NCBI GenBank assembly: GCA_017624835.1
Contig: JAGAMG010000022.1
Location: 97,449 to 161,448, forward strand
DNA from: Lachnospiraceae bacterium
Lineage (GTDB): Bacteria; Bacillota; Clostridia; Lachnospirales; Lachnospiraceae
Direction of reading: 5' to 3'
DNA: 64,000 nt
Shown: positions 45,142-62,755 of the stretch, in pieces
Layout of the letters: each line of letters starts with the position of its first letter
How positions within the stretch are numbered: the stretch's first letter is position 1
Program-made: the position numbers and the translations under genes
The notes under the pieces: generated by a model
What the model was told of the DNA's origin: nothing
Databases searched by the model: none
What the model saw: the letters and a program-made list of their open reading frames with translations, nothing else

Positions 45142-45921
45142 TTATTTTTCCTCTCCAAACACAATTCCTTCCACCAATTCCCTATTGAAATAGGAAAAAA
45201 GAAACAACGGCGGTAATAGCACCAGCAGACAACAGGCAAACTGTTTTTCCCAATTCCCTGATGACACATACGCCAATGCTACAGAAATAGGATAATCCTC
45301 AAAACCATCCAGATAAGCGATGGGTTGTTCCACCATATTCCATGCATCCAAAAAGGATAATATGCCTGTACATACCAGCCCACCCTTACTTACCGGAATG
45401 ACCACACCAAAAAAAATTCCAAACAGTCCACAGCCATCTATCCTTGCACTATCAAGCATATCATCGGATACCGTTCGAAAACACTGTGTCATAAGAAAAG
45501 TCCCCAATGGCACAAAAATATTAGGAAAAATCAACGCTGCATCCCTTCCAAGTATCTTTAGTTTGTCCAGAATAATATAAGTAGGAACCTGTGTCACCTG
45601 CAAAGGCAATATCATCAGAATCATCAGAAAAAAGAACATAATATTTTTGCCGGGAAAGCTATATTTTGCAAATCCATAGCCTGACAGAACTGACACTAAA
45701 ACCTGTCCGAATACAATATACAAACAAATACCAAGACTTCGCCAAAAACGAAATAAATATTGTGAGGTTCCTAAGAAAACATCATAATATGCTTGAAAAG
45801 AAAATCCCCTATCCTGTTGATAAAAACCACCGGTTAACACAAGAAAATAGGGTACAACGCACAAAATTCCCAGAAAAAAAACAACAATTGATGTTATCCA
45901 ATGCTTTTTCTTCCTTTTCAC
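45142..45921 (-). CDS. ABC sugar permease (MalG/MsmG type)
   Basis: Inner-membrane permease of 259 residues with six segments. The EAA loop region reads DSARIDGCGLFGIFFGVVIPVSKGGL, with the usual MalG-type SARIDG. It overlaps the partner permease gene by 4 bases. CUT1-type sugar importers usually use a shared ATPase (MsmX/UgpC) encoded elsewhere; none is in the window. It is on the short side for the family. Confidence 0.88.
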   Translation of the reverse strand: MKRKKKHWITSIVVFFLGILCVVPYFLVLTGGFYQQDRGFSFQAYYDVFLGTSQYLFRFWRSLGICLYIVFGQVLVSVLSGYGFAKYSFPGKNIMFFFLMILMILPLQVTQVPTYIILDKLKILGRDAALIFPNIFVPLGTFLMTQCFRTVSDDMLDSARIDGCGLFGIFFGVVIPVSKGGLVCTGILSFLDAWNMVEQPIAYLDGFEDYPISVALAYVSSGNWEKQFACCLLVLLPPLFLFSYFNRELVEGIVFGEEK

Positions 45922-46784
45922 GTCCTATATGACTCCTTTCTCCTAACCCATGCATATATAATTCCGATTACAACCGTCACTACAAGAAATAGAAGCACCG
46001 ATGCCACGGATAATTTTCTATAGTTCAGATTTTCAAAAGAATTATTTATAAAATGTTGTAACATATACACATCCGTATTAGGATGTTTTCCACCAATCAG
46101 AAAAATCTCCCGGAAACATTTAAATGCATTCAGCATGGAAAACAGTAACGCAAAAAATATAGAGTACCACATTTGGGGTGTCGTTATATACCTAAATTTC
46201 TGAAAAGAACCTGCACCCTCCAACTCTGCAACTGCATACTGCTCCCTAGGAATCGTCATAAGCCCTGCCAATAACAAAATAACGCTATAACCTGTGTTTT
46301 TCCACAAATATAAAAGTATCATTATGGCAAACGCCCAAGAAGATTCCAACCAATCGCCTGTAGGCAATCCCAAAATATTTAAGCATTTATTCAATATGCC
46401 TTCACTGCCCCAAAGCTGTTCTACCAACAGAACAGTTCCCACCACAGGCATAACATAGGGAAACAAAAGCACTGTTTTCAGCAACTTGTGACGTTCTACA
46501 TGTTTCTTCAGCATAAGTGCTATTCCATAGGAAACCAATAGAATCAGTGGCAGACCTACGAAAAGGAAACGAAAGGTATTCCAGAATGCCAAACAGAACA
46601 TTTCATTATCAAACATTTTTTCATAATTCTCTAAGCCAACAAAGCTGCCACCTGCTCCCACACTACTTTTCAGTGAATACACCACCATCATACCAAAAGG
46701 AGCTGCATAGAATACCATGCAGCCCAGCATCATAGGAATGACCAATAAATAGCCGATCATATATTTCTTTATATTCCTTTTCAT
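45918..46784 (-). CDS. ABC sugar permease (MalF/UgpA type)
   Basis: Permease of 288 residues with six segments: LLVIPMMLGCMVFYAAPFGMMVVYSL at the N-terminus and the EAA loop VAELEGAGSFQKFRYITTPQMWYSI. It pairs with the MalG-type permease and the lipoprotein binding subunit upstream, giving a complete importer minus the ATPase. Confidence 0.88.
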   Translation of the reverse strand: MKRNIKKYMIGYLLVIPMMLGCMVFYAAPFGMMVVYSLKSSVGAGGSFVGLENYEKMFDNEMFCLAFWNTFRFLFVGLPLILLVSYGIALMLKKHVERHKLLKTVLLFPYVMPVVGTVLLVEQLWGSEGILNKCLNILGLPTGDWLESSWAFAIMILLYLWKNTGYSVILLLAGLMTIPREQYAVAELEGAGSFQKFRYITTPQMWYSIFFALLFSMLNAFKCFREIFLIGGKHPNTDVYMLQHFINNSFENLNYRKLSVASVLLFLVVTVVIGIIYAWVRRKESYRT

Positions 46785-46803: not shown

Positions 46804-48060
46804 CTATTCCGATAGTTCCATTTGCAAAGTATTGTATGTACTGTGTACCATTTCTTTTCTTTCATCCTCATCCCGAGTACGCACATACAGATAAAACATG
46901 TTATACAATTCTTTATCAAAGTTAGAATAAAAGCGAACAGCATTTATTTTACTCTCTAAATTTTCTATAGCATCCATATCTTTCTGAGTAAGACCGGAAT
47001 ACATATTCTGATATGCCTGCCGATTTATCGGCGCTTCAAACCAGCTATACCATTTCAATTGCCCAAAGCTGTGTTCCCCATCCCTAAAGCCTGTTCCACT
47101 CATAAATTCATCACTAAAAAAAACATCTATCAGTGAAAAAGCCATCTCTGGCTGTTTTGTATTATGGTTAATCCCAGCATACATAGTAATATTTGCAGTA
47201 ACGCCACCCGCCTCATTAGGTAATCCGATTATAGTATAATCTTCTTGTTCTGCTGCAAGATATTCATATAATACTTTCAATGCTGCGCCCCCAACAACTT
47301 TATCCGGTGCATTCTCCACAGCATCACTTTCATAGGTTGCTTCTATGTATTGTGCAGCTTCCTGTGCTCTTATCAGTAGCTCTTCTTCCGTAAACAACAG
47401 TTTTTCTTCCTGATAGTCTGCAAGTCTACCATATATTTCAGAAAACTTGGAATATAAAGTAAGACTCATTGCTTTTTGAATAACAGGATTTTCACAAACA
47501 AGCAATTCTTCCCATGAAGAAGGAATACCACCATTCCCCTCTACATCAGTTGTATGAAATGCAAAGGCCGCATAATGATAAAGTATCGGAAGCAGCATCT
47601 GACCTTCCTCTGTTCTTCCAGCCTCCAAAATTGTCTGATTCCAGTTCTCTGGTCTCATATAATTTGCCTGCTTCATATATTCATCCAATGGTAGGAATAC
47701 ATCCGCATACATCATTTTCTCCGGATTAGAAAAGAGAATTGCTTCCGCTTCTTCATCCTGTGCACTCATTGGATTAATACAGGAAAGAATAAACACGTCC
47801 GGACCACCACCCGACATTATTTCAGTGCGAATTTCCGTCATTTTTATTTCCGCAGTATCAGAGTCCTTCGGAATAACCACTAGTTCAGCCTCTGCCCCTT
47901 CATTTAGTTTCTCCCATACGTCAATCAATTCCCGCGCCTGATCACAGAAATGATAATCCACACACACAGTTAACTTTTCCGGCTCTTTTTCCTGCTTTTG
48001 GCAGCCTGTACAGATTCCAAGCAGCAAAGCAGTTGTCATTAATATGAGTATCTTTTTCAT
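46804..48060 (-). CDS. ABC extracellular solute-binding lipoprotein
   Basis: Protein of 418 residues from the ATG at 48060 (AGGAG 5 bases upstream). The signal peptide MKKILILMTTALLLGICTGC ends at lipid-attachment Cys20. The mature part follows family 1 sugar-binding proteins: MSGGGPDVFILS, VFLPLDEYMKQ and GGVTANITMYAGINHNTKQPEMAFSLIDVFFS. Ligand unknown; by family a sugar or oligosaccharide, although its neighbours (small secreted proteins, XRE regulator) leave a peptide or signal molecule possible. Confidence 0.85.
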   Translation of the reverse strand: MKKILILMTTALLLGICTGCQKQEKEPEKLTVCVDYHFCDQARELIDVWEKLNEGAEAELVVIPKDSDTAEIKMTEIRTEIMSGGGPDVFILSCINPMSAQDEEAEAILFSNPEKMMYADVFLPLDEYMKQANYMRPENWNQTILEAGRTEEGQMLLPILYHYAAFAFHTTDVEGNGGIPSSWEELLVCENPVIQKAMSLTLYSKFSEIYGRLADYQEEKLLFTEEELLIRAQEAAQYIEATYESDAVENAPDKVVGGAALKVLYEYLAAEQEDYTIIGLPNEAGGVTANITMYAGINHNTKQPEMAFSLIDVFFSDEFMSGTGFRDGEHSFGQLKWYSWFEAPINRQAYQNMYSGLTQKDMDAIENLESKINAVRFYSNFDKELYNMFYLYVRTRDEDERKEMVHSTYNTLQMELSE

Positions 48061-48135
48061 TTTTTCTCCTATGCAAGATGGAACTGTATATAATAAATTC
48101 AATTCCATCTTGCAAATTTTACATCTTTTAATCAA

Positions 48136-48480
48136 TTAATGATAGCCATGGCATTCCGACTTCTGTTGCTTTCCTATGCTCTGAAGACCAGCTCCACAAT
48201 AATTACAAATAGATGTGATTAGTCTTGTTCTTTCTTTTATTAAATCTGTTCCATAAGGATAATGTGTACAATCTATCTCGCCTACAGTAGACCATTCACT
48301 CCATTCTCCATAAGTTGTTTTCATTTGACCTACACCGCAATCATCACACAGCGCTGCTCTCGGCTGTACACTTACATTCAATTCCTGTGCCTGAACGGAA
48401 GTACCACCTGCCAAAAATGGAACCATTATTGCCACTGCCATACAAGATAATACCATCTTACTAATTTTTTTCTTCATCAT
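48136..48480 (-). CDS. Small secreted Cys-containing protein
   Basis: Protein of 114 residues with a signal peptide (MMKKKISKMVLSCMAVAIMVPFLAGGTSVQA, probable cut after AQA). The mature part reads NVSVQPRAALCDDCGVGQMKTTYGEWSEWSTVGEIDCTHYPYGTDLIKERTRLITSICNYCGAGLQ and has CxxC...C...CxxC...C, a pattern for a small zinc or disulphide fold. Similar secreted proteins occur in clostridia without assigned function. AGGAG precedes the ATG. It is first in the operon with the ABC importer and lies beside the inverted pair of XRE-type sites. Confidence 0.65.
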   Translation of the reverse strand: MMKKKISKMVLSCMAVAIMVPFLAGGTSVQAQELNVSVQPRAALCDDCGVGQMKTTYGEWSEWSTVGEIDCTHYPYGTDLIKERTRLITSICNYCGAGLQSIGKQQKSECHGYH

Positions 48481-48573
48481 TCGTTGTCTCCTAAATTAAT
48501 TTTTCGTTTTAATAACATTTTAATCAAACATGTCTGACAGGGCTAATGTAACACAAATATTCTATAACAACAA

Positions 48574-48624
48574 TTGAGCAAATGGAAATGTGCACTGTAA
48601 ATCCTGCATTTTCCATTTGCTCAA
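48574..48624. promoter_or_regulatory. Inverted pair of XRE-type sites/hairpin before the peptide-ABC operon
   Basis: TTGAGCAAATGGAAA at 48574-48588 and its exact inverse at 48610-48624. The same sequence class also occurs twice before the XRE gene (49752-49786). A TATAGAAT-like -10 lies just past it toward the 48136 gene. It may also form a hairpin at the end of the 48662 transcript. Confidence 0.65.
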
Positions 48625-48661
48625 CACCTTAAATATAGCTTATTTTGCCTATGAATTTTAG

Positions 48662-49015
48662 TTATTCCTTATAGAGTGTACCTCTATATGTTGCTACAGT
48701 ATTATTAGTAGTATGCGAATATCCTGATAATGTAAGTGTACCAGAATAATTAGCACCATCTATCTTTTCACTCCAAGATAGTTTTTTAGATGGTATCACT
48801 ATTCCAGAATATATCACTTCTCTCGTCACACTTTTTCCAATACTACGAATGGTAATTTCATTACTTTCCATTTCATCTACGGCAAAAACTTCATAGTATA
48901 CCCCTTCTGTTGTATACCCCTCTCCTACTTTTTGCACACCCTCCTGTGCACTTACCGGCAATGAAATAGTTATAATTAAACTGAAACATACTAAAATACC
49001 ACAAATTTTTTTCAT
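48662..49015 (-). CDS. Small secreted protein of unknown function
   Basis: Protein of 117 residues. Signal peptide MKKICGILVCFSLIITISLPVSAQ, then a mature beta-rich region of about 93 residues without cysteine: VYYEVFAVDE, VTREVIYSGIVIPSKKLSWSEKIDGANYSGTLTLSGYSHTTNNTVATYRGTLYKE. Related secreted proteins recur in clostridia next to XRE regulators. It starts 15 bases after the XRE gene stop and is co-transcribed with it. Confidence 0.65.
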   Translation of the reverse strand: MKKICGILVCFSLIITISLPVSAQEGVQKVGEGYTTEGVYYEVFAVDEMESNEITIRSIGKSVTREVIYSGIVIPSKKLSWSEKIDGANYSGTLTLSGYSHTTNNTVATYRGTLYKE

Positions 49016-49030
49016 ATTATCTTATTCCTT

Positions 49031-49708
49031 TCATTCAACATCTAAAAAAACATACCCTATATATTCTGTTTCTTCCCAAGCTAATGCAGCTTTTTCATTA
49101 TTATAGTAGGAAAGCTTTACCGTTGTTGATTCTATTTCAGGATCATCCTTGTACCTGTTGTATATTTCATCTAACATAACACTTTCCAATGCAAGGTCAA
49201 TTTCTCCCTCAACCACAAATGCTATTTCATACGATTTTCCCCATAGAGGATCATCAATATATCTAGTACCAACCTGTTGAATAGCAGGCTGCTCTTGCTT
49301 CGTACTTGATATAACAAATCCTATTGCCACAACAAATACTGCTATAAAAATGAAAAGTCCTACAACAGCCCTATATTTTTTTATCTTTTTTTCTGTCCTT
49401 TTTGCATCTCTCCCCTCTTCTTCATTCCTCATTTCCTGCGTTTTTTGTGTTTCCTCACTAGCTTCTTCCTGATATGTAGGATTTTCCAATTTCTCCAACG
49501 TTCTAATGGGATTATGTAAATCATCACAGGAAACTTGAAAAATCTCTGCTATCCTATTAAACATTGTCATATCCGGAAGATTTTTTCCATGCTCCCATTT
49601 GCTAATGGCAGATGTAGAAACTGACAGCTTATCTGCTAATTCTTTCTGACTCATTCCTCCTTTTTTTCTTAATGTAGTCAAAAGCTTACCAAATTCTTCT
49701 TTATTCAT
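49031..49708 (-). CDS. Membrane-anchored XRE-family regulator
   Basis: Protein of 225 residues from the ATG at 49708. Residues about 3-57 are a Cro/XRE HTH (LTTLRKKGGMSQKELADKLSVSTSAISKWEHGKNLPD), then a charged linker, one membrane segment at about 113-135 and a 90-residue outer domain (YIDDPLWGKSYEIAFVVEGEIDLALESVMLDEIY). A one-component sensor: the outer domain may sense a signal and change DNA binding. Two copies of TTGAGNANNNGGAAA overlap its own promoter, suggesting autoregulation. Confidence 0.8.
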   Translation of the reverse strand: MNKEEFGKLLTTLRKKGGMSQKELADKLSVSTSAISKWEHGKNLPDMTMFNRIAEIFQVSCDDLHNPIRTLEKLENPTYQEEASEETQKTQEMRNEEEGRDAKRTEKKIKKYRAVVGLFIFIAVFVVAIGFVISSTKQEQPAIQQVGTRYIDDPLWGKSYEIAFVVEGEIDLALESVMLDEIYNRYKDDPEIESTTVKLSYYNNEKAALAWEETEYIGYVFLDVE

Positions 49709-49742
49709 GCTTTCCCCTCTGTATTGTATTATTTTTGACAAC

Positions 49743-49771
49743 ATTATACACTTGAGCATTTGGAAAATCAA
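49743..49771 (-). promoter_or_regulatory. Promoter of the XRE gene
   Basis: TTGATT (49766-49771), 17 bases, TATAAT (49743-49748) on the minus strand. The spacer is filled by an XRE-type site. Confidence 0.7.
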
Positions 49772-49786
49772 TTGAGGAAACGGAAA
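49752..49786. promoter_or_regulatory. Tandem XRE-type sites at the XRE promoter
   Basis: TTGAGCATTTGGAAA (49752-49766) and TTGAGGAAACGGAAA (49772-49786), 20 bases apart, so on the same face of the helix. The first sits between the -35 and -10 boxes. They match the inverted pair at 48574-48624. Confidence 0.7.
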
Positions 49787-49857: not shown

Positions 49858-51975
49858 TTAGTTCTTCGTTTTACAAGCAAAGCATCTTTTCCCCCAAAAT
49901 AATACAGCAATTCCACTTACCAGAGCTATCAGGAACCAAGCTGATACACTATTATTATCCCCTGTTTTGGGCACATTGTCCTTTTGCTTTGTCTCCGTTG
50001 CTGCCGGAGTATCTTCCTCTGTATCGTCCTCCGTATCATCTACATCATTATCTTCTGCAGACGTATTTTCTCCGCCTATGGTAGCTCCATCATTGCTATC
50101 ATTTCCACCGGCATTTCCTCCACCATTATTTTCACTACCACCACCGACAGGAGTGTTTACCGTATCCTTATACGCAAGTGAATAGATGGAGAATCTGTCC
50201 GTCGCAAAGGTTATCGTCCGGGTTGCCGGATCAAAGCTGCAAGGAAGTATGTCTGCCTTGGCACCTGTTCCGTCATTATGTATGCGGATTATTTCATAAG
50301 CTCTGGTCTTGTTGGTATCCGTATTTATGAGATTCTGAGGTATTGTAAATTTAACACTTACCGCTCCGTTGGTAGCAGAAACCGTAGCTGCACTTTCGCC
50401 ATCGAACTGCTTCCATAAAGTAAGGTCAAGGTACATACCTAATGTATAATCACCTAATTTCGCCTGTGTCAAGGTCTTATCTTCCTCAGTTGCTACGCTC
50501 TCTCCGGCTTTTACCTCTAACCAAATCTTTGCATTCTTTCCGTCAGTGACCTTCTGTTGTTCCTCCGTGGACAATACCTTTCCCACCAAATCAGATCCGC
50601 TTACATCCAGCATTGCATTGCATTCATTAGTTGCTTTATCAGTAGCATTTTCTACTGTTCCGGAAACAGGTGTGGCAGCTTGGAAATACTCAGAGATTGG
50701 AAGTGTAAGCACATTGCTCACATTTCCTGCTGCATCCTCAGTGACAAAGAAAATTTCAAATGTTCCTGCCGTAAGTGTGGTAAGGGAGAGGCTGTTTTCT
50801 CCGCTTACGCAGCTTGCACTTGTGCCGTACTGTTTCAGGTAAGATGCTGATGGAGCGGAACCGGCGCCCTCATGCTGATACTTGTAATAATATGTTCCTG
50901 CCTCTGTACTGGAAAACCTTACAGTTGCCGTGCTATCGCTTGTGCGGCTTGTCCCCATTCCGGTCAGGAAAGGCGCGATAGTATCCCCGGACGTTATCAC
51001 CCTGGTATAACCACAGGTATTACAGTTCGCATCCTCATCATTGTCATAGCTATGCGTTCCATAGCCATCCTTTTGGCTCACATCTGATATATTACAATCT
51101 CCCACTCCCTCGCAATTATGCCAATGATAATCAGCATCACTACTCCATGCTGTTGCCCAGCTATGAGTCGTACCTGAAGCTATGAGCTTTACATATGGAT
51201 AGGAACTTAATGCTGCAGTATTGTCCCAAGTAGCAGCATCACCTTCATTGCTGCCAACCCATACCTGACAATGATAATTTCCCAAATCAGGAGCACTTTG
51301 GAATGCCGCGGTTCCACCTTTTATTGTCATGGTACCTCCCTGAATAATAGGAGTATTGGTTCGATCATGATCATATCCGATTCCATAAGTAGCTCCTGTA
51401 GCTGTAACCACTGCATTATCCTTTATGGTAATAGCACCGGCTACTGCATTATTGCAAATGCCTGCCTTGCTTGTACCAACCGTATTGACCTTAGCATCTC
51501 CCTGTATGGTCACATTCTTCCAAACCCAAAAACCATTGTTTGCACCTGTAACATTCAGTGTACCACTTCCCTGAATTGTAATGGATGGACCATCAGTAAA
51601 TCCGCTATCTCCCACAATGGCACTGGCGCCTGTACTTATCACAGTGTTTGTTGTACCATCTTCAAGTTCTAATATCAAATCAAGATTACCATTATAATAG
51701 TCCCCCCATAGGATAGCCTTTTCACTTGTTTCAATCTGTAAACCCTTCAAGGTCAAAGTACCCGTACTTGCATCAAAACTGGCATGGGCATCTGCTGCCA
51801 CATTATCTGCCGTACCCTGTGCACCGTTTGTTCCATTATGATAATAGGGATTACTTGCATCCAATGTTGCCGTACCTATTTTAACACTTTCCGTAGGCGC
51901 AGCATATGCTGTAATTGGTGCAAATGTCAATGCTACAAACAACCCACTTAACATACTAAACAACCACTTTTTCAT
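49858..51975 (-). CDS. Sortase-anchored surface protein with carbohydrate-binding-like repeats
   Basis: Protein of 705 residues from the ATG at 51975 (AAGGAG 6 bases upstream). Signal peptide MKKWLFSMLSGLFVALTFAPITAYA. Residues about 30-260 form a beta-helix-like repeat domain (GTLTLKGLQI, SITIQGSGTLNVTGANNGFWVWKNVTIQGDAKVNT), then a Trp/His/Cys stretch, an Ig-like region and a domain beginning TVENATDKATNECNA. The end has VPKTGD, a hydrophobic segment and a basic tail, as for LPXTG sortase substrates with V for L. Probably displayed on the cell wall. Confidence 0.8.
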   Translation of the reverse strand: MKKWLFSMLSGLFVALTFAPITAYAAPTESVKIGTATLDASNPYYHNGTNGAQGTADNVAADAHASFDASTGTLTLKGLQIETSEKAILWGDYYNGNLDLILELEDGTTNTVISTGASAIVGDSGFTDGPSITIQGSGTLNVTGANNGFWVWKNVTIQGDAKVNTVGTSKAGICNNAVAGAITIKDNAVVTATGATYGIGYDHDRTNTPIIQGGTMTIKGGTAAFQSAPDLGNYHCQVWVGSNEGDAATWDNTAALSSYPYVKLIASGTTHSWATAWSSDADYHWHNCEGVGDCNISDVSQKDGYGTHSYDNDEDANCNTCGYTRVITSGDTIAPFLTGMGTSRTSDSTATVRFSSTEAGTYYYKYQHEGAGSAPSASYLKQYGTSASCVSGENSLSLTTLTAGTFEIFFVTEDAAGNVSNVLTLPISEYFQAATPVSGTVENATDKATNECNAMLDVSGSDLVGKVLSTEEQQKVTDGKNAKIWLEVKAGESVATEEDKTLTQAKLGDYTLGMYLDLTLWKQFDGESAATVSATNGAVSVKFTIPQNLINTDTNKTRAYEIIRIHNDGTGAKADILPCSFDPATRTITFATDRFSIYSLAYKDTVNTPVGGGSENNGGGNAGGNDSNDGATIGGENTSAEDNDVDDTEDDTEEDTPAATETKQKDNVPKTGDNNSVSAWFLIALVSGIAVLFWGKRCFACKTKN

Positions 51976-62705: not shown

Positions 62706-62755
62706 TAAAAAAACAGTGCGAAAAGGCTGAAATTAAGTCTTTCGCACTGTTTTTA
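62706..62755. terminator. Terminator past azlD
   Basis: AAAACAGTGCGAAA (from about 62709) pairs with TTTCGCACTGTTTT (to about 62753), flanked by A-rich and T-rich sides. It overlaps the azlD stop codon and can act in both directions. Confidence 0.7.

Follow-up and report, generated by a model that had tools for sequence, protein, structure and literature searches.

Paired operator-like sites suggest autoregulation by a predicted membrane-anchored XRE regulator and its control of a solute-binding-protein operon in a Lachnospiraceae genome

Which protein reads a set of repeated sites in the DNA of a gut bacterium is the question raised by the locus described here. In a 64,000-nucleotide stretch of contig JAGAMG010000022.1 (positions 97,449 to 161,448; Lachnospiraceae bacterium, assembly GCA_017624835.1; hereafter the window), the genes of a helix-turn-helix (HTH) regulator of the XRE type and of a small secreted protein, SP1, precede an operon for a second small secreted protein, SP2, a solute-binding protein and two permeases of an ATP-binding cassette (ABC) importer. 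Matching 15-bp sites stand in pairs on the xre promoter and ahead of SP2. From sequence comparison we consider it probable that XRE is an autoregulated, membrane-anchored one-component regulator which also controls the SP2/solute-binding-protein/permease operon, and the paired sites are likely bound by XRE itself.

The preliminary description of this locus had reported four matching sites, namely an exact inverted pair at 48574-48624 and, on the xre promoter, two variants at a distance of 20 bp, one of them between -35 and -10, and these details were all confirmed. TTGAGCAAATGGAAA occurs in exact copies at 48574-48588 on the plus strand and at 48610-48624 on the minus strand, so that the inverted pair, written out, reads TTGAGCAAATGGAAA...TTTCCATTTGCTCAA. 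The variants TTGAGCATTTGGAAA (TTTCCAAATGCTCAA when read towards xre) and TTGAGGAAACGGAAA form a direct pair; the first of them, at 49752-49766, lies in the spacer of TTGATT-17-TATAAT, where it fills most of the 17 bp together with the last base of the -35 element. The interval that separates xre from its upstream gene holds two terminator-like hairpins (49815-49790 and 49796-49774), of which the latter overlaps the upstream site. Taken singly, such sites are not rare in the window: the 15-mer with at most 3 mismatches has 10 matches, compared with 5.6 in shuffled sequence (standard deviation 2.5), and 8 of 100 shuffles reach at least 10, so the case rests on the closeness and pairing of the sites. 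When 48136-49786 was shuffled 500 times, 4 of the shuffles produced an exact 12-bp inverted pair with a gap of at most 40. Exact 15-bp inverted pairs with such a gap number two in the whole window, 48574-48624 and, as the sole other, 62709-62754.

The same distinction between single and paired sites was found across genomes. In the source genome (2.93 Mb, 55 contigs, 84.81% complete), TTGAGCANNTGGAAA has exact matches at five places, three at the locus and two inside open reading frames (ORFs). With at most one mismatch it matches 26 places (3 at the locus; reversed control, 3), and 18 of the 19 distant places whose surroundings were fetched lie in ORFs, the other (L008) being in no ORF of at least 90 amino acids; thus, a single site is not diagnostic. 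The paired sites behave differently. The relaxed inverted-pair pattern TTGAG-N5-GGAAA-N14-26-TTTCC-N5-CTCAA is found in two of the 138 genomes searched in the genus, at one place in the source genome (G000) and at three in Lachnospiraceae bacterium GAM79 (G205, AP018536.1), with none for the reversed control. The relaxed direct pair is found in three (G000, G502 and G206; control, 0), in every case upstream of an xre start, although the G206 gene is cut by the contig end after 17 residues. Assuming 3.05 Mb per genome and the base composition of the window, roughly 0.007 inverted and 0.009 direct pairs would be expected by chance. All of these places except that of G206, the one new find of the pattern searches, were known before the patterns were written, so what the searches test is exclusivity. 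G274 and G253 also have, by eye, a site in the interval from TTGATT to the -10 element. The co-occurrence of sites and regulator is, by these comparisons, well supported. In these genomes the paired sites stand solely at xre loci; the test proposed earlier, with the single 15-mer, would be ambiguous.

The three GAM79 pairs all lie within the xre/SP1 neighbourhood, 5' of the xre start, of the unit after SP1 and of a second ABC unit. Their common loop and flank letters make them look like recent duplicates, as would be the case if the inverted pairs were copies of a small repetitive element that had settled at the locus. We regard this as very unlikely, since the inverted pair is found nowhere else in either the source genome or that of GAM79, and since the sites on xre promoters are direct pairs, with a different geometry.

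The architecture of XRE is consistent with a membrane-anchored DNA-binding protein. Its N-terminal domain matches HTH_3 (PF01381) with E=1.4e-15 and 57.5 bits, compared with a Pfam cut-off of 23, which places it among the XRE/Cro-C1 HTH regulators; the match to the RstR model reaches 61.7 bits, below its 80-bit cut-off. Hydropathy analysis gives one hydrophobic segment, at residues 115-133, followed by 92 residues, as had been proposed earlier for a protein with an HTH, one membrane segment and an outer part of about 90 residues. In the family alignment (A5; 20 XRE rows, one of them a fragment) all members have a hydrophobic segment with 85-107 residues after it, and in 18 of the 20 there is exactly one such segment by hydropathy, which fits a single membrane helix. 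No RodZ model is among its 20 Pfam matches or the 25 of 30 NCBIfam matches listed (E at most 0.1), and PADLOC matches are confined to its N-terminal part. Few proteins in the genus are related to XRE over most of its length: 91 of the 101 genomes searched with the XRE query match, mostly through the HTH alone among the matches listed. A search of the family with full-length XRE matched 52 of 200 genomes, again mostly with HTH-only matches listed; the membrane and outer part matched 1 of 397 family genomes, the source genome itself, and the single protein found no relative in genome contigs.

Among relatives of xre the sites themselves have diverged. Of 22 xre loci, 9 carry a minimum of two TTTCC-N4-6-NTC(A/C)A sites in the 250 bp ahead of the gene (mutually overlapping in L097). 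With at most 3 mismatches allowed, 7 of 21 loci hold at least two sites, compared with 0.06-0.37 expected. In G305, which belongs to another genus, TTTCC-N6-GTCAA stands upstream of SP1 and of the following unit. The ending of the sites seems to follow one residue of the recognition helix. Where this helix has cysteine before K/R-W (G264, locus L094 of G253, and G305), the sites end in GTCAA, with one arm of L094 ending in ATCAA; where it has serine (the window, G205, locus L064 of G253, G274 and G502), they end in CTCAA or CTCCA, and one of the three sites of G274 ends in TTCCA. The exceptions are L068, a cysteine type with no pair, L097, a serine type with TTCCA, and several serine-type loci with no TTTCC sites. 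As the match was noticed post hoc, the tracking of operator ending by helix residue is a lead and not a test.

These data bear on whether the sites might belong to another DNA-binding protein, with XRE as a mere passenger. Other HTH proteins are at hand, the source genome alone holding six matches to the XRE query. Nevertheless, every paired-site match in the 138 genomes is at a locus with such an xre gene, and the correspondence of helix and site, apart from L068 and L097, points the same way. Because of this exclusive co-occurrence another binder is disfavoured, and we hold it to be improbable. XRE as the likely DNA binder, put forward in the preliminary description, is supported by the occurrence of the paired sites in these genomes only at loci with such an xre gene, before xre and its neighbouring units.

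Several observations count against the reading of XRE as a membrane-anchored regulator that acts through these sites. Upstream of xre, 13 of the 22 loci lack the TTTCC-type pair, and in seven of these no repeat exceeds the 95-of-100-shuffle level (L067 stood outside the shuffle test). Among the 13, other repeats that exceed at least 95 of 100 shuffles are present at L065, L070, L073 and L074, and L108 has a terminator-like inverted repeat upstream of xre and carries TTTCC-N6-GTCAA 5' of SP1 and of the next unit instead. In a test for repeated 14-mers, just 8 of 21 upstream regions held a count reached by at most 5 of 100 shuffles, and no pairs were detected on the xre promoters of the window or GAM79; these pairs, with more than 2 mismatches in 14 positions, escape the test, which is too strict. 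An extra or overlapping hydrophobic segment is predicted in 2 of the 20 aligned regulators. Ahead of SP2, the candidate promoter is a weak consensus match, and the promoter scan returned 11 hits compared with 8.8 in shuffled sequence (standard deviation 2.9). Finally, the minus strand of 48574-48624 folds at -28.8 kcal/mol (z -5.08), with 0 of 200 shuffles equally stable, and the pair is followed on that strand by TTGTTGTT, with 6 T in 8 bases and no unbroken run.

The last of these points would be explained if the inverted pair were an RNA element, a terminator or attenuator hairpin that ends the xre-SP1 transcript, rather than an operator. Its position just after the SP1 stop codon is in keeping with that function, as is the placement of all three GAM79 pairs after a gene on the same strand. 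The terminator scan considered loops of 3-8 only and was hence blind to this hairpin, whose loop is longer. In G274 and G264, however, an inverted pair stands between divergent gene starts, where no transcript ends; the related sites on xre promoters are direct pairs; in GAM79, by eye, a separate hairpin with T5 lies between SP1 and the inverted pair; and Rfam returned no match for the pair as a putative RNA element. An RNA function in place of an operator, conceivable for the window taken alone, is on balance unlikely.

We return to XRE as the probable reader of these sites. The sites, the gene content, the confinement of the paired sites in the genus to loci with such xre genes and a comparable layout in some relatives are observed; that XRE physically binds the sites, how it sits in the membrane, the direction of control, what it senses and what SP1, SP2 and the solute-binding protein do are inferred. 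Mechanistically, the cytoplasmic HTH of XRE would bind paired TTTCC-N5-CTCAA sites (in the window, TTTCCATTTGCTCAA and near variants). The direct pair would cover the -35/-10 region of the xre promoter, and bound XRE would most likely repress xre and SP1, because a site sits in the promoter spacer. The inverted pair would overlap the presumed promoter of the SP2/solute-binding-protein/permease operon: its 48574-48588 arm overlaps the poor -35 element of the candidate TTTCCA-18-TAGAAT (48588-48559), an arrangement that fits repression or activation, and XRE would switch this operon. In turn, the outer part of XRE, perhaps together with SP1 or products of the controlled operon, would report a surface or extracellular condition; an outside signal is likeliest given the constant 85-107-residue tail and the SP1 partner. 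The features concerned are collected in Table 1.

Table 1. Coordinates in the window of the regulator, its candidate sites and the adjoining genes
Feature	Position	Strand	Remark
xre promoter, TTGATT-17-TATAAT	49743..49771	-	Promoter scan; consensus match only
XRE regulator	49031..49708	-	N-terminal HTH_3, one hydrophobic segment, C-terminal part presumed outside
SP1, small secreted protein, 117 amino acids	48662..49015	-	Directly downstream of xre
Operator-like site TTGAGGAAACGGAAA	49772..49786	+	Abuts -35 upstream; direct pair with the 49752-49766 site
Operator-like site TTGAGCATTTGGAAA (TTTCCAAATGCTCAA read towards xre)	49752..49766	+	In the -35/-10 spacer of the xre promoter
Operator-like site, one arm of the exact inverted pair	48610..48624	-	Inverted-pair pattern in 2 of 138 genomes
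Operator-like site, other arm of the inverted pair	48574..48588	+	TTTCCATTTGCTCAA read towards the SP2 operon
SP2, small Cys-containing protein, 114 amino acids, signal-peptide-like start	48136..48480	-	First gene after the inverted pair
12-bp inverted pair, TGCAAGATGGAA / TTCCATCTTGCA	48072..48114		Directly 5' of the solute-binding protein gene start
Solute-binding protein, lipoprotein-like start (by eye)	46804..48060	-	SBP_bac_1 E=2.6e-5, 24.8 bits, slightly below the cut-off of 26
ABC importer permease	45918..46784	-	BPD_transp_1
ABC importer permease	45142..45921	-	BPD_transp_1

The partner protein SP1 is a better marker of the module than the XRE query. It has no convincing match in Pfam or NCBIfam (19 members aligned), nor a convincing relative in the PDB (best E 0.043). 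With the single sequence, 2 of 200 genomes were found, the source genome included; the genus-wide search gave 15 of 138 including the source genome, 12 of which were kept after dropping G521, G235 and G527, whose marginal matches are short and N-terminal (E 3e-4 to 9e-4). A profile search across the family gave 6 of 397 with the source genome, G170 and G305 being kept and G175, G438 and G018 dropped (E 8.7e-5 to 9.8e-4). Class-wide, the search gave 6 of 138 with the source genome, and the other five, partial matches in open frames of 416-991 amino acids, were judged spurious. In the alignment of 19 SP1 proteins (A6), 17 come directly after an xre gene or a piece of one; at L109 two genes lie between xre and SP1, and the stretch fetched for L107, which stops at a contig end, holds no xre.

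Gene labels in the relatives, outside the reported domain scans, were assigned by eye. G253 contains five SP1 genes (loci L064, L070, L074 and L094), all of them adjacent to an xre gene; one of these xre genes has an internal stop. At L064 two modules appear to be recent duplicates of each other, and the promoter repeats of the remaining modules differ. In GAM79 the xre gene is split: the first 42 or so residues (L061:2571-2708) and the rest (L062:6398-6931) are about 13.7 kb apart, with two-component, ABC and mobilisation-like genes between the pieces and a serine-recombinase-type gene just before the second piece, both by eye. A second xre relative of this genome (L063:7783-8235) has no HTH part and is likely a remnant.

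On the other side of the inverted pair, the window presents a solute-binding protein with two permeases, the composition of a carbohydrate-type ABC importer, with the SBP_bac_1 match below its cut-off. Lipoproteins of a single family are encoded in twelve other fetched stretches with such an xre (tblastn E at most 1e-4: L064, L065, L066, L068, L070, L072, L073, L074, L094, L095, L096 and L099; the L073 match is partial, E 3.2e-5). Of the six large ones scanned, five (L064, L066, L068, L070 and L074) score at or above the Pfam threshold for a solute-binding model, and Pfam gives no match for that of L065. The lipoprotein gene is divergent from xre in 10 of the 12 stretches and convergent in L068 and L095, and in 7 of the 12 a small Cys-containing secreted protein is encoded between the two. 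SP2 resembles these small proteins in position, size and CxxC, although homology is not demonstrable (hhalign probability 8.6%), and the binding protein of the window has no tblastn match in the stretches of the relatives. GAM79 and G305 have ABC systems in the place of the lipoprotein, which share two proteins (E 3.6e-42 and 3.6e-38) and are probably exporters. Permeases after the binding protein were identified in the window only. The sensing-and-uptake circuit suggested earlier is therefore retained in part: the tie to solute-binding proteins recurs in kind, and uptake as a general rule is not supported.

Other elements of this region can be noted. The 12-bp inverted pair at 48072-48114 resembles the operator with one base inserted, and could form an mRNA hairpin between cistrons or represent a divergent operator. 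A large secreted protein is encoded at 49858-51975, with no Pfam match and, by eye, a VPKTG motif, a hydrophobic stretch and a basic tail at its C-terminus, like sortase-anchored proteins; the product of 52004-52957 matches SHOCT (E=1.2e-9) and, below cut-off, DUF4428.

Taken globally, the relatives allow a wider and more tentative proposal, which we consider possible and rather doubtful: a family of surface-signalling modules, each with a membrane XRE, SP1, a small Cys-containing secreted protein and an orphan solute-binding lipoprotein. Here the lipoprotein or the secreted proteins would feed an outside signal to the outer part of XRE, and helix and operator would have co-diverged, such that modules could work in parallel in one cell without cross-talk. 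Should XRE act as proposed for the window, gut Lachnospiraceae would possess a membrane-anchored regulator of repressor type with readable operators, and sequence would suffice to predict parts of its regulon. In that case the paralogous G253 modules would be a natural setting in which to examine how recognition helix and operator co-evolve, and orphan solute-binding lipoproteins would gain a candidate sensor role. Among open-licence PubMed Central papers, judged by title and the start of the abstract, we found no description of the xre/SP1 family.

Known systems offer partial parallels. ToxR, TcpP and CadC have a single membrane helix, and ToxR and CadC carry OmpR-type winged DNA-binding domains. 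Unlike that of ToxR and CadC, the DNA-binding domain of XRE is of XRE/Cro type; its candidate sites are TTTCC-N5-CTCAA pairs, and a small secreted protein, SP1, is its partner. By design, XRE would work like these membrane-bound one-component regulators, as they are described in PMC7593790. In the CylR1/CylR2 system of Enterococcus faecalis, as PMC3709268 presents it, an HTH repressor is accompanied by a suspected membrane protein that is believed to pass on a signal from outside the cell, and the two genes are divergent from the operon they control, as at many xre loci of the relatives. In that system the membrane and DNA-binding parts are two proteins, CylR1 having three predicted helices, whereas XRE combines both in one chain with one segment. 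The HTH domains are related, and the PDB matches 1utx and 2xiu cover the HTH of the XRE profile. In RodZ, a cell-shape protein, a single membrane helix and then an outer domain come after the HTH. XRE shares this order, and differs in the operator-like pairs, SP1 and solute-binding proteins found at xre loci. Finally, XRE resembles the phage-repressor-like RstR, P22 C2 and SinR in its HTH domain, a kinship to which PDB matches also point, and in its probable autoregulation through several sites on its own promoter. These proteins are soluble, with neither membrane helix nor outer domain, unlike XRE with its predicted membrane segment and outer part.
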